64,000 bases of DNA from an uncultured Schlesneria sp. GTDB lineage: Bacteria; Planctomycetota; Planctomycetia; Planctomycetales; Planctomycetaceae. The translations under genes and the position numbers were made by a program. The stretch is from contig CAIULL010000030.1 in assembly GCA_903899985.1 (NCBI GenBank), positions 1-64,000 on the forward strand, given 5' to 3'. Below the pieces are notes generated by a model, which ran no database searches, was not told where the DNA came from, and was given only the letters and a program-made list of their open reading frames with translations. This document shows, piece after piece, positions 6,922-43,754 of this stretch (position 1 is its first letter; the number at the start of each line of letters is the position of its first letter).

Positions 6922-7090
6922 AAAGTAGCCATCATCGCTCCGCGTGATGAGCATGCGTCGGAAACGACTCAAGCGTTGCCTTAGCATCGTGACAAATATT
7001 TGGTTTGAATTCCTTTTTTGAGAACATGCGAATTGAAAATTGGCAGGTTCTCAAAAAATGCTCATCACGCGGAGCGATGATGGCTACTTT
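6922..7090. repeat. 169 bp palindrome-ended intergenic element with perfect 33 bp terminal inverted repeats
   Basis: aaagtagccatcatcgctccgcgtgatgagcat (6922-6954) is the exact reverse complement of 7058-7090; nested 12 bp IR ttttttgagaac/gttctcaaaaaa at 7014-7025/7047-7058. Confidence 0.85.
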
Positions 7091-11497: not shown

Positions 11498-12733
11498 ATG
11501 TCGTCAGATCAACCAAGTTCAGCTTCGGCCCACGGCAAGGATCAGGTGTCGTTGGCTGGGCCTGCGCACAGTCTGCGATGGTGGCTTGAAGTGGCTCGGG
11601 TGCGACTGCGATTTTTCATGATCGTGGCGATTGCAGGCCTGGTCACCAGTCAATGGCCGTTATTACGAGGCGTCTGGAATCGATGGACTTGGAGCTCGCA
11701 CGGGCACGCCAGTGGTTCGGTATCGAGTTCACACGAATACTTCTGTCCGATGGATGCCGGAGTCATTTCGGTCTGGCCCGCAATTTGTCCAATCTGCAAT
11801 ATGGACCTTGTTCCTCGCAAGAAGATGGAAGCTCAGATGCTGCCCGAAGGGGTGATCGCTCGGATGCAGCTTTCCCCGTATCGAATTCAGCTGGCAGGCA
11901 TCAGAACGTCACTCGTCGAGCCTCGAACACTGAAAAGTGAGCGAACATTTACCGGTGTCTTACGACAGACGAAAGATGGCGCACTTGTTTTTCAGGCGAG
12001 AATTGCTGAGTCCGATGTTCCACTTTTTTCCGGAACGAATATGGCAGACGTTCATCTTGTCTCCCGCGTTGAGAAAACTTCTGCAAATGTGCTTCTTGAA
12101 GCTGTTGATGACCGTCATCAGATTCGATTTGTGCTTGACAGTTCGGATAGGTTTTCAGCTGGGGATATCGTACGAGCATCGGTTTCGCTTCCTGCAGTTG
12201 GGGAAGATCCGATCCTCGCCGTTCCTGAATCTGCGGTGATTGATCGCGGTCGAGAAAGACTGGTCTACGTGGAAACCATGCCCGGTCTGTTTGACGGCGT
12301 CGCAGTCGAGCTGGGACAACGTTGCGGTGGTTATTATCCCGTGAACAGCGGTTTGAAGGCTGGTCAACGCGTTGCGACGGCTGGCGCATTTCTGATCGAC
12401 GCCGAGACGCGACTGAACCCGGGCCTTGCGACAGGATACTTTGGAGCAAATCAAAGTGAGTCAAAGTCCAGCCCGTCATTGCCTTCTACGTCAGCAGAGG
12501 CTGCGTTACGAACCACAAACAAAGCGACGCCAAAACACCAGCTATCGCCAGAGGACCAGAAGCTTGCCGACGAACAGCGTATCTGCCCGGTCACCGAACT
12601 CGCGCTAGATTCGATGGGTGGTCCCGTCGCGGTCATGGTGTCTGGACGGAAAATCTTCGTCTGCTGTGCCGGTTGCACTCAACGATTGAAGTCTGAACCC
12701 GGGAAGTATCTCGCAAAACTTGAAACAAGGTGA
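11498..12733 (+). CDS. RND efflux periplasmic adaptor (CusB-like) with heavy-metal-binding and YHS-like domains
   Basis: EYFCPMDAGVISVWPAICPICNMDLVPRKK (HMBD), adaptor core (GVIARMQLSPYRIQLAGIRT), C-terminal CPVTELALDSMGGPVAVMVSGRKIFVCCAGC; start trimmed to ATG 11498. Confidence 0.88.
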   Translation: MSSDQPSSASAHGKDQVSLAGPAHSLRWWLEVARVRLRFFMIVAIAGLVTSQWPLLRGVWNRWTWSSHGHASGSVSSSHEYFCPMDAGVISVWPAICPICNMDLVPRKKMEAQMLPEGVIARMQLSPYRIQLAGIRTSLVEPRTLKSERTFTGVLRQTKDGALVFQARIAESDVPLFSGTNMADVHLVSRVEKTSANVLLEAVDDRHQIRFVLDSSDRFSAGDIVRASVSLPAVGEDPILAVPESAVIDRGRERLVYVETMPGLFDGVAVELGQRCGGYYPVNSGLKAGQRVATAGAFLIDAETRLNPGLATGYFGANQSESKSSPSLPSTSAEAALRTTNKATPKHQLSPEDQKLADEQRICPVTELALDSMGGPVAVMVSGRKIFVCCAGCTQRLKSEPGKYLAKLETR

Positions 12734-12862
12734 TTTCTATCTGGCTGGGAATATTCGATCTGCGAAATACCGAAACACTAATGAGTGATCGTAAGACGAA
12801 TTGAAACCAGGCAAGTTGGCATGCTGCTTGTCTTCAACACAAAGTAAAATTCACAGGTTGAC

Positions 12863-15800
12863 ATGATTTCCGGTCTGATTGAATTCTCGATTCGATACCG
12901 AACGGTGGTGGTTCTCACTGCGATCGTTTGTGCGTTGGCGGGAATTTACGCTGCCGTCCACTCGCCGATCGATGCGGTTCCGGACCTGTCTGAAAATCAG
13001 GTGATCATCTTCACAAACTGGCCGGGGCATGGTCCGCAGGAAATCGAAGACCACGTCACTTATCCCCTTTCGTTGCAAGTGCAAGGGCTTGATGGCGTCC
13101 GCGTCGTTCGTGGTTCGAGCGACATGGGCTATTCGATGCTTCATGTCATTTTCGAGGACCGCGTTTCCTTCGCGTTCGCTCGGCAAAAGGTCCAGGAACG
13201 ACTGAGTTCGAGTGAGGTTCGACTACCCGAAGGAGTGATCCCGCGACTGGCTGCTGATGGAATTCCGACGGGCCAGATCTACTGGTACACCGTCGAAGGT
13301 GTTGAGCATGATCTGACGGAACTTCGTCGATTACAAGACTGGACAATCGCCCCTCAGTTACGGTCCATTGCGGGAGTCGCTGAAGTTGCCAGTGTCGGTG
13401 GCTTTGTCTCTGAACTAAAAATCCAGGTGGATTCAGGGCTGCTGGCAGCGTACGGCATGACGGTGCTAAGCCTTTATGACGAGTTGTCCCGACCCACTTC
13501 GAATGTCGGTGGCCACGTTATTCACAAGGGAAATGCGGAATTTGTTGTTCAGTTTGATTCGAATCACGAATCTTCGAAGCAAATCATGGCCTGGGAACAA
13601 CGACTCATTCCAATTCCTTCTGGCGGCAGTCTGCCACTCGGCGAAGTTGCCAAAGTGACGTGGGGGCCAGCCACTCGGCGGGGGATGTTCGAAAAGGACG
13701 GGAGCGAAGTTGTTGCGGGGATTGTTCATCTGCGTTACGGGCACAATCCTCTGGAAGTGACACGACAGGTGCGGGCAAGACTGCGAGAAGTCGCCGCGGG
13801 CCTGCCAGAGAATGTGAGAATTGTCCCGTGTTATGATCGGACGCCGCTGATTCTTGGTGCGGTCAGGACCGTAACGCGAGCGCTGATCGAAGCGATCCTT
13901 GTTGCCGGCATCTGTGTTCTGGTTGTTCTACGTCACTTTCGTGCCTGGGTCGTGATAGCACTGACGCTTCCTCTTTCCGTACTCGGAACGTTTCTCTGCA
14001 TGTGGTTGTTGCGAACGACCGGTGTGATCGACGTCCAGACCAATATCATGTCGCTGGCTGGAATCGTAATCTCGATCGGAGTGCTGGTCGATTCGTCGAT
14101 AGTCATGACGGAAAACGTCATGCACCGACTTCGATTACGATTCGGGGACGATCCCGTTCAGGGAGATGTCACCGACACGATCGCAGCGGCCTGCCAGACT
14201 GTGGGGTGGCCCGTATTTTGTTCTGTGCTTGTCATGCTGATCTCGTTTGCGCCTGTGTTTGCTCTTGGCGGGATCGATGGCCGAATGTATCGCCCACTCG
14301 CCCTGACGAAATCGCTTGCTCTCATTTCCGTCGCCTTTCTGGCGGTCACGCTTGTGCCGGCTCTTTGCACGTTCCTCGTAAAAGGCCGAATAAGAGACGA
14401 GTCTGACAGTGCGATCGTGCGCAACGTCATCGGTGTTTATCGACCGATGCTCTCATGGCTGATGGATCGCCCCGGTCCCCTGATCTTTTTTATGAGTGTG
14501 ACCCTGGTCCTGGCTTCGATTCCGCCTGGTAACGACGTCATTTTTCGAACAGTCTTATTCGGTTCGCTATCGCTGATTCTATGGGAAGCCGTTTCGTCAG
14601 GCGCGAATTGGCGAGCGGTCAGAAATGCCATCGCGCTCATCGTGATAGCACTGGTCGGCCAAAGCACGATGAAACCGCTGGGGATCGAGATGCGACTTCC
14701 GCTCGACGAAGGAATGTTGATGGACATGCCGATCACGATTCCCCGCGCTTCGATCACGCAGTCTGCCGATGATTTGAAAGCACGCAATATGGTCCTTTGC
14801 CGGTTTCCTGAGGTGGCGATGGTGACCGGAAAAGCGGGTCGAGCAGACACTCCGTTTGATCCCGCACCGCTCGATATGATCGAAACGATGGTCGAATTCC
14901 GACCTAAGGAAATGTGGCCTAAACGCCGTCTCTTGCAAGCCGATGCCAGGCGAATGACAGAGCGGATGATCCTTGAACTGACCGAAGCGCAGCTCGTTAA
15001 AGCCATTTCTCGCGAGGAAAGCGAAGCCATCAGCAATACAGTTCAATTTCGCTTCGACTCGATTCAGCGTGAGGCGGCGTACCAGCTGACCAATGTTTTC
15101 TGTCAGCAACTGCAGCAGGATCTCTGTCGTGTTTTGATCGAGCAGATCGGTCGGCAATTGCAGTCAGACGGACGGATGACTCGTGCTTTGTCACCCGCAG
15201 ACGTTACCGTGATTCTGACGGAAATGCCTTTGGCGGACACACGAGAAATCGCCCTCTTACCGTCATTGGAATCCATTGCCAGACTCTGGCCACGGGTTCT
15301 GAAGTCGATGGAACATCATCAGTTGCTACGTCATGAAACCGAAACAAGTCCGTCGTTCGTCGGTTCCTCGCTCGAATCCCTGGTCGCGATTGGAACGATG
15401 TTCGGACTGACGCCATCAACGAGCGAAACGCAAGTACTGACCCTGATGCAGCGTGAATTTCGTCGAAGATGGCAACGGCATGTGTTCGAATTAGACAAAA
15501 CGCTTCACGAACGAACGGCGCCGACTTGGTTGAGGCTGGTCGCCAATGAATGCTTTTCCATGGGAAAGCTCATTGACGATGCGCTTGTCGAAAGGTACTC
15601 ACAGATCGTGAAGACGCAAAGTGCTGTCTTGCCGTCTCATGACGATGAAACGCATCAGGGATTGCCCTCGCTATCCGTGCTTCCGTTGATCGATCCGCAT
15701 CCTCGATTTGATTCGATCTGTCGTCGTCTGTCAGTCGAGTTTTCGCGGTCGCTGCTCCTTTGGCAGCATGACGCGGCCACTCTGACCGCGTTTGAAGGAG

Positions 15801-22355: not shown

Positions 22356-22431
22356 CGTAAGCCCGACGCGCGAGCGAGGGGGGCCTGTCTTCAAAACAAT
22401 GAAGATTCCTCGCTCGCGCGTCGGGCTTACG
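22356..22431. repeat. perfect 24 bp inverted repeat
   Basis: cgtaagcccgacgcgcgagcgagg (22356-22379) / cctcgctcgcgcgtcgggcttacg (22408-22431), 11 bp after the stop codon at 22344. Confidence 0.85.
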
Positions 22432-22512
22432 TTTTGCGGTGCTTTTAGCGCCAATCCAAAATCCTAACGGGACGGCCCGATGTCAGTCCGGTGGCGTCGT
22501 TTCGATATCGGT

Positions 22513-22848
22513 ATTTTGCCCCGAATGGGACAGCAGAAACCAGCCCAGCGGAAAGCTCGTCATCGAGCGCCGCACTGGGTTACGGGCCACAATCGGAGGG
22601 GTTGCCTTGAAAGGGCAACGGAACCATGGAGTCGGCAATTGGACCTAAAACTCGAGACAAATTCGCCGCGTTTTAGATATTTGCGACCACAGAATCTTCC
22701 AGTGCCCTTACAGGGCACGCCGTATCGTCGTTGGCGTCTTACCCAGGGCGGCGCTCGAGGACGAGCTTGCCGCTGGGCTGATATCCGTCGGCCCATTCTG
22801 GGCGAAGAATGTTTCCATGTCGTCTGCGCGGGTCAATGTCGTGTGCGT
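22513..22848. repeat. long imperfect palindromic repeat, copy 1
   Basis: Left arm attttgccccgaatggg..cagcccagcggaaagctcgtcatcgagcgccgcactgggt matches the reverse complement of right arm acccagggcggcgctcgaggacgagcttgccgctgggctgatatccgtcggcccattctgggcgaagaat. Confidence 0.85.
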
Positions 22849-22915
22849 CTATCGCGTTATCTCGAAACGAGAATACGGCGTGAACCATCGTTGTCAGGCC
22901 GCATCGTCCCACAGC

Positions 22916-23251
22916 ATTTTGCCCCGAATGGGGCAGTGGAAACCAGCCCAGCGGCAAGCTCGTCCCCGAGCGCCGCCCTGGGTCACGAGCCACAATCGAA
23001 CGGGTTGCCCTGACGGGGCAACGGAACCATTGATTCGACAATCGGACCTAATAAGTCGGAACAAATTCGCCGCGTTTTATGATATCGGCTTTCATTGAAA
23101 ATTCCCGCGCCCTTACAGGGCACGCCGTATCTTCGTTGCCGTCTTACCTAGGGCGGCGCTCGAGGACGCGATTGCCTCTGGGCTGATATCCGTCGGCCCA
23201 TTCTGGGCGAAGAATGTTTCCATGTCTTCTACGCGGGGCAATGTCGTCTGC
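22916..23251. repeat. long imperfect palindromic repeat, copy 2 (tandem, period ~403-405 bp)
   Basis: Same order of blocks as copy 1: attttgccccgaatgggg, gggttgccctgacggggcaacggaacca, aaattcgccgcgtttta, cccttacagggcacgccgtatc, gggctgatatccgtcggcccattctgggcgaagaatgtttccatgtc. Confidence 0.85.
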
Positions 23252-23343
23252 ATACATCATGTTGACCGCAGACTAACGATTCGGCGGAGTCGGAGATTGA
23301 AATACCGGACGTTATTTCCAAGCCCGCCTCGTTAACAGGGAGG

Positions 23344-28841: not shown

Positions 28842-29617
28842 ACTATTGTGTCCTAAATACGAGACGAAAGTTTAGGCACCACAGTGCAAATGAAATATTG
28901 AATCTTTGTGTTTGATCAATTTCCCCATTCTACTGGATTTGGGGACGTATCGCCTCACGCCATCGTAAAATGTATTTGACATGTACATCTTGAACTCCTG
29001 TTCGACTTTGCAGCGTTCGATTGGCTGATGTTAGCCGATCGGGAATGCGAGGGATTGTAGACAGAGGAACGAGCATGTTCGTGAAAGGAAGGACTTTAAA
29101 ATCACGTAAAGCCGCTCTGATTCGCTCGACGGACCGTAAGAATCGGGCAGTGTCTGCCTTAAAGGTGTGATCGAACAGAGAGTGAACCTGACGAGACTCG
29201 AATTATTCACTTTGGAGTCAATCGAATCTCGTTTGATCGTCCTCAGCGTGCACTCGCTCGCGATCCCCCCCGCCCTTTTTTTGCGGCGGCTTTGGCGTAA
29301 CTGATTTTGAGTCGAATTCTCAGCGTGGCCTCGCCGTGTTGGCGTGCGTCAAAAACCTCGATTTCCTATAGAGTCCTCCAAACGTTAAAAAAAAGTTGCG
29401 AAAATGGGTTTAAAGGCGACAGGTTCTGTTTTATAAATTTGTCGCACTCTTGTGTGTACCAAATGCTCGCGACGCCAGAAATGGAGAGAGAATCGTTACG
29501 AGATCGTTGAGGGTCAACGAAGCGATAAAGGGATTCTTTCCTCGAGTCCGTAGATCATCCATGGTCGTTGAATCAATTTCGCCTCCGGATCGGCCAGTCT
29601 TCGCGATGAGGGTGTGC

Positions 29618-29685
29618 AAAGTTGGCCAAGTTCGCACATGCGAAAATCCCATCAAAAATAGGAACTTGGCCAACTTGGCCAATAT
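29618..29685. repeat. direct repeat copy 1 with internal dyad
   Basis: aaagttggccaagttcgcacatgcgaaaatcccatcaaaaataggaacttggccaacttggccaa. Confidence 0.65.
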
Positions 29686-29802
29686 TTTTGCAATTGTTTG
29701 GCGGGCGTCAAAATCTCGACCTTGCCCTACGCAGGCGAACACCAGAAACCAAAGAGCGCCCGGTGGCAGGCTCGCTCTGTTGAATTCAGTACACGAGCGA
29801 AC

Positions 29803-29870
29803 GAAGTTGGCCAACTTTGCACACGCGAAAATCCCATCAAAACCAGGAAGTTGCCCAACTTGACCAAGTT
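29803..29870. repeat. direct repeat copy 2 with internal dyad
   Basis: gaagttggccaactttgcacacgcgaaaatcccatcaaaaccaggaagttgcccaacttgaccaagtt. Confidence 0.65.
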
Positions 29871-43687: not shown

Positions 43688-43754
43688 TTGAATAACGAAA
43701 ACGAAGAAACGCGAAATCGTAATCGACTCGCGTTCCTTCGTTTTCGTTATTCAA
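43688..43754. terminator. long hairpin downstream of the E2 gene
   Basis: ttgaataacgaaaacgaag (43688-43706) / cttcgttttcgttattcaa (43736-43754) perfect 19 bp, extended inward by aacgcga/tcgcgtt. Confidence 0.75.

Follow-up and report, generated by a model that had tools for sequence, protein, structure and literature searches.

Two large palindromes lie in tandem between two convergent genes in the genome of a Schlesneria-like planctomycete, and raise the question of what kind of sequence they represent, given that an earlier note on this DNA considered a structured RNA, a mobile palindromic element, and a protein-binding array. The window, that is, the whole stretch of DNA that was analysed, is 64 kb in length, and the identity of the host is based on the oxidoreductase locus beside the array, for which the closest named relative is an uncultured Schlesneria sp., with 92% protein identity. 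The gap that holds the array is non-coding, as had been stated, with both neighbouring genes ending outside it (Table 1) and the small open reading frames that cross the palindromes (177, 100, and 93 aa) encountering frame-breaking indels in the relatives, which argues against a coding function. An origin from a phage or plasmid was also discarded, as the phage and plasmid collections gave no match.

The palindromic cores of the two units extend over positions 22513-22808 and 22916-23213, at an offset of 403-405 nt. Direct repetition is found between 22513-22648 and 22916-23051 (87% identity, spacing 403) and between 22671-22858 and 23076-23263 (85% identity, spacing 405), while the inverted arms are 80% identical both in copy 1 (22515-22589 and 22732-22806) and in copy 2 (22918-22983 and 23146-23211), in agreement with their description as reverse complements. 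The tandem arrangement and the period of ~403-405 bp reported in the earlier note thus hold, but the size of ~335 bp attributed to the palindrome does not, given that the palindromic core covers ~296 nt, a further ~50 nt to the right of it are common to the copies by direct repetition only, and the cross-species alignment extends the repeating unit to the full ~403 nt. The differences between the copies are mostly substitutions, as had been supposed, except for small indels, which shift the spacing from 403 to 405, and the ~105-nt tail, which is only 61% alike. When folded as single-stranded DNA, the units reach -89 and -82.7 kcal/mol (z = -10.5 and -7.8 against dinucleotide shuffles, with equally stable shuffles in 0 of 200), and no longer inverted repeats were found in the whole window.

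Table 1. Positions of the array, its neighbours, and other repeats in the window, and of the corresponding array in G004 (contig G004:C2).
Feature	Position	Strand	Details
FAD-dependent oxidoreductase gene	ends 22344	+	left neighbour of the array
Hairpin repeat	22356-22431		separate from the array; perfect 24-bp inverted repeat (CGTAAGCCCGACGCGCGAGCGAGG), 28-nt loop
Sequence directly left of the array	22452-22500		CCTAACGGGACGG...ATGTCAGTCC
Copy 1 left arm	22513-22622	+	R1 model 89.6 bits, alignment, hairpins read from sequence; A 22517-22532; foot CCAG and B 22544-22579; C 22601-22619
Copy 1 spacer	22623-22697	.	75 nt; place of the transposase gene in the autonomous relative
Copy 1 right inverted arm	22698-22808	-	R1 model 104.2 bits; C' 22702-22718; B' 22742-22777, foot TCAG; A' 22791-22803
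Unit 1 tail, between palindromes	22809-22915	.	part of the ~403-nt unit; 61% identical to the copy 2 tail
Copy 2 left arm	22916-23025	+	R1 model 105 bits; A 22920-22935; B 22947-22982; C 23004-23022
Copy 2 spacer	23026-23102	.	77 nt
Copy 2 right inverted arm	23103-23213	-	R1 model 88.2 bits; C' 23107-23123; B' 23147-23182; A' 23196-23208
Unit 2 tail	23214-23313	.	G001 synteny stops at ~23313 (G001:C111 aligns to 22452-23313 only)
PAS/histidine kinase gene	ends 23344	-	right neighbour, convergent
Inverted repeat	6922-7090		perfect, 33 bp, 103 nt between arms; unrelated to the arm family
Inverted repeat	29612-29824		23 bp (GTGTGCAAAGTTGGCCAAGTTCG), 167 nt separating the arms
Hairpin	43688-43754		27 bp, near-perfect, 13-nt loop
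G004 palindrome	11543-11840
G004 A-B-C arm	11946-12054
G004 Y1 transposase gene (PF01797)	12273-12722	-
G004 C'-B'-A' arm	12839-12948
G004 second palindrome	runs to contig end

Each arm is ~110 nt long, is near-palindromic in its own right, and is composed of three local hairpins in a row, A (TGCCCCGAATGGGGCA), B (CCCAGCGGCAAGCTCGTCCCCGAGCGCCGCCCTGGG), and C (GTTGCCCTGACGGGGCAAC). The unit reads A-B-C, a spacer of 75-77 nt, and C'-B'-A'. Hairpin B is preceded by ATATCAG or AAACCAG, and its foot is TCAG or CCAG in the family of the window, and often TAG or GTAG in other planctomycetes. Because each hairpin is self-complementary, any two arms match in either orientation, and it is this inverted matching that gave the unit its appearance of a single giant palindrome. 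A pair of inverted arms describes the element better than one giant hairpin, which was rejected as the conserved structure, given that the covariation sits in the local hairpins and that the A and A' arms differ by paired changes within their own stems.

This covariation was evaluated in the named local stems of an alignment of 45 arms, from which a covariance model (R1) was also built, with shuffled sequences and a slid pairing partner as controls. Paired cells made up 92.6% of the local stems, versus 86.7% after shuffling and no more than 52% after sliding, and there were 78 two-sided changes, versus 25.6 (sd 3.5) in the shuffles and no more than 12 with the slid partner. The arm sequences are related, so the shuffle count should not be read as a probability, but the slide control preserves this relatedness and is far lower. 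Pair 6-19 of hairpin A, for example, occurs as four types (GC, UA, CG, and AU), pair 35-64 of hairpin B as AU, GC, and UA, and pair 91-107 of hairpin C as UA and GC. Constraint acts on the hairpins, and the covariance check proposed in the earlier note recovered the compensatory changes.

The arms are also widely dispersed. When one unit was used as the query, 55 matches were recovered in its own genome (G000), and a search of 40 genomes returned matches in this genome and in four congeners, one of which contributed a single marginal match, with none in any of the other genera among these 40. Based on the best 150 candidates per genome, so that the counts are lower bounds, the R1 model finds at least 47 arms in the own genome, 46 in G001, 52 in G004, and 32 in G005, with fewer and weaker matches in the more distant congeners; the window holds exactly four. 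The copy count, which the earlier note had also called for, thus revealed that other copies exist, and the combined absence of such copies and of compensatory changes, which it had held to be fatal to its proposal, applies on neither count.

These arms occur either alone or as convergent inverted pairs. Neighbouring arms no more than 150 nt apart form 26 distinct convergent pairs, with A outside and C inside, separated by spacers of 49-112 nt, while six neighbouring arms are divergent (-/+), with gaps of 26-119 nt. The spacers of units at unrelated places are alike beyond shuffles in 63 of 325 comparisons, so that the spread has involved whole units and not just individual arms. Units also form tandem series in G001:C211, G005:C183, and G005:C245. 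The extragenic location was checked at the window locus.

The arms are further associated, within the genus, with genes encoding Y1/HuH transposases. In the own genome, one such gene (G000:C139, L031) has A-B-C on its upstream side and C'-B'-A' on its downstream side, in arms of a divergent subfamily that reach only ~51 bits with R1. The orthologous locus of Schlesneria sp. G004 (G004:C2, the contig of the named record L056) holds a longer array, in which a Y1 gene and its arms lie between two gene-less palindromes (Table 1). The protein encoded there groups with those of G001:C167, G005:C306, and G007:C21 (support 99/97); the genes of the first two adjoin arms of the window family, and that of G007:C21 has its own inverted arms. 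The transposase scores 81.6 bits with the Pfam Y1_Tnp model and 59.4 bits with the NCBIfam IS200/IS605 transposase model (cut-off 55), while the NCBIfam RAYT model (REP_Tyr_transpos) yields 19.2 and 27 bits, below its cut-off of 80, and the nearest solved chains (2xm3, 2xma, and 2fyx) are labelled transposase. The motif Y...Q..HH (YxxxQxxHH) is found in all the full-length proteins of the genus but one (L159), and DH.H and WQ are also present. By these motifs and their length (~150 aa), the predicted proteins of the genus fit TnpA-Y1 subclass 1.2.

In the own assembly (296 contigs), no transposase of the G004-type clade was found, the best candidate being the 57% identical C139 protein, and the G004-type enzyme may have been lost, left unassembled, or replaced by that of C139. 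The Y1 genes at the contig ends of C188 and C136 were considered as sources of the cognate transposase and rejected, as they belong to a different Y1 group. The Y1 genes of this genome have diverged from one another, and a transposase in multiple near-identical copies was not seen among them. Two others, at G000:C27 (L032) and G000:C151 (L033), are flanked by arms in direct orientation, with more copies nearby, an arrangement different from the inverted one.

The association extends beyond the genus. At 57 Y1 loci, from the genus and other Planctomycetota, inverted arms were sought within 350 nt on each side, with upstream and downstream flanks drawn from different loci as the control. Inverted multi-hairpin arms were present at 39 of the 57 loci, versus 5 of 289 mismatched controls, and were not found in these flanks at the remaining 18. 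In the 32 arms listed, [TCA]AGC stands directly before a hairpin in 27, where 2.3 would be expected from shuffles, the mean number of hairpins per arm is 2.3 (versus 1.1), and, across the phylum, GTAGCC is found in nine and TAGCC in 19. As these motifs precede hairpins, the middle hairpin resembles a REP with its GTAG head, accompanied by an extra hairpin on each side. In G085, one inverted arm pair is separated by only 101 nt, with no room for a gene between its members. On balance, these observations favour the interpretation that subclass 1.2 Y1/HuH proteins drive a class of REP-like system of their own, not recognised before, across the Planctomycetota, in which they are typically bracketed by inverted arms of A, foot and B, and C, and the arms spread as miniature elements. 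If so, a REP-like lifestyle would be found in the IS200-type (class 1) branch, apart from the class 2 RAYTs.

Given this, the two units of the window very probably belong to a family of mobile elements, as non-autonomous, REPIN/BIME-like forms that a transposase would mobilise in trans by way of single-stranded DNA. The suggestion of a giant REP/BIME-like mobile element in the earlier note is therefore supported, by the many copies, the compensatory changes, and the arms around a transposase gene. In this reading, the parent element consists of A-B-C, the gene of a ~150-aa Y1/HuH transposase, and C'-B'-A', and the miniature form carries a short spacer in place of the gene. The IS200/IS605 and REP groups of Y1/HuH enzymes bind to hairpins folded from single-stranded DNA, cut adjacent to them via a tyrosine, and join the ends elsewhere. 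The TnpA-REP of E. coli cleaves in vitro at CT, either 5' or 3' of the REP, in a manner dependent on GTAG (PMC8266576). By analogy, a transposase made from another locus would bind the folded arm when the DNA is single-stranded, as in the lagging-strand template, for example, docking on hairpin B with its foot and cutting beside the arm through its catalytic tyrosine, after which the arm or pair would be excised or copied and then placed elsewhere. Recombination between arms could build tandem arrays like that of the window. An origin of the spacer by internal deletion of the parent was also considered but not accepted, as the window spacers show only marginal similarity (p ~0.03) to the inner end of the element with the transposase gene.

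The host may, alternatively, maintain the arms as sites of binding or folding, whether for gyrase, a nucleoid protein, or as a terminator or mRNA stabiliser between the convergent genes, with their mobility long dead. The location between convergent gene ends would suit such a function, the tandem is common to G000, G001, and G004, and therefore old, and REP/BIME sequences are known to acquire roles of this type (PMC8266576). This explanation is nevertheless unlikely, given that the copy locations vary between congeners, whole units recur at unrelated places with their spacers, and the arms flank transposase genes far beyond chance. A role in the host could coexist with a mobile-element origin, and the protein-binding array proposed previously may be a secondary role of the arms.

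The strong folding and covarying hairpins would also be expected of a tandemly duplicated structured non-coding or cis-regulatory RNA, but no Rfam family exceeded its gathering score, the weak match to mir-6302 falls far below that score and refers to a different hairpin (22356-22431), and many unrelated places hold copies, in either orientation and as inverted pairs. The structured RNA option is thus unsupported, and highly improbable. The similarity of copies 1 and 2, even in part of the tail outside the palindrome, indicates that the local array arose by tandem duplication; as a complete explanation, however, the plain duplication of a palindrome specific to this locus, with no wider family, is refuted by the dozens of related arms found elsewhere, and its probability is negligible.

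The units share with the REP/BIME/REPIN sequences and their RAYTs a hairpin with a short 5' foot, inverted pairs, tandem arrays, an intergenic location, tens of dispersed copies, and arms that flank a Y1 transposase gene in inverted orientation (at G004:C2, G000:C139, and the 39 loci of the flank test). They differ in that a plain REP is a single hairpin of 20-50 nt, whereas the arm is 2-5 times longer and has three, in the foot (GTAG or CGTC in REPs, TCAG or CCAG in the window family), and in the transposase, whose Y motif ends in NP in the RAYTs (class 2 TnpA-REP), in contrast with the Y...Q..HH of class 1 found here. The proteins of TnpA-Y1 subclass 1.2 agree in DH[IV]H, WQ, Y...Q..HH, a length of ~150 aa, low copy number, and a class-1-like character (PMC6006769). 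In the table of Quentin et al. 2018, this subclass is assigned "no" for REP, and its taxa are mainly Cyanobacteria and Bacteroidetes (PMC6006769), whereas the present loci are from Planctomycetota, with inverted multi-hairpin arms and dispersed arm copies.

The TIRtrons, or TIRYTs (Di Nocera et al. 2013), also have a Y1 gene between terminal inverted repeats, some of them self-complementary and forming repeat families, according to the accessible text of PMC3733652, in which no three-hairpin arm was found described; 20 of the 26 described TIRYTs belong to subclass 2.1, with helix-turn-helix tails (PMC6006769). The IS200/IS605 elements (IS608, ISDra2) share the protein family and fold class, and the recognition of single-stranded hairpins would be expected here too. 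They have no terminal inverted repeats (PMC2817692). Those of subclass 1.1 occur in multiple near-identical copies, whereas the ends here are inverted copies and the Y1 genes of the own genome are diverged. In the literature searched, which lay outside most subscription journals, no description was found of subclass 1.2 enzymes accompanied by arms of three hairpins.

The repeat family is thus tied to a transposase subgroup previously reported without REPs. The origin of REPs from insertion sequences is an open question, and an IS200-type transposase group with inverted three-hairpin ends, which also occur as dispersed miniature elements, is a candidate intermediate between the two. The system provides pairs of enzyme and substrate suited to single-strand cleavage assays, and the family accounts for many of the palindromes of planctomycete genomes, which form a large class, and may account for some of their contig breaks.

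The history of the locus can be traced in part through the congeners. Copy 1 shares 87% identity with the corresponding copy in G001, versus 79% with copy 2 in the window, which indicates that the duplication is older than the split between G000 and G001, while copy 2, at 78% identity to its counterpart, represents a less clear case. Between the two genomes, the left arm of copy 1 is 83% identical and the tail 79%, while the spacer and right arm form a patch of ~180 nt (22623-22808) that is 98-99% identical to G001:C111, with 88% identity in the neighbouring gene. Gene conversion or a recent exchange may have produced this patch. Elsewhere, G000 and G004 have the arm at C254, which G005 and G001 lack, and the pair at C118 is absent in G005. 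In these cases, the copies are missing from the orthologous intergenic regions, the flanks of which are too diverged for the exact ends to be defined. The comparison of the congeners revealed neither a transposition event nor a target site or clean empty site, and the intergenic DNA of the species without a copy is diverged.

Other repeats were noticed as well. The sequence directly to the left of the array (22452-22500), which has equivalents in G001 and G004, looks like a decayed additional A-foot-B arm. The hairpin repeat that precedes it has 22 matches in the own genome, although it is self-complementary, so that the distinct places are fewer, and G001 and G004 lack it at the orthologous site. 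In the orthologues of the G000:C254 locus (L245 and L246), the arm-less gap holds a different hairpin repeat, of the CCACTGCTTGACCGTCTTCGGTCAAGCAGTG type, which is also found near other Y1 genes, and it seems that several repeat families occupy the same gaps.
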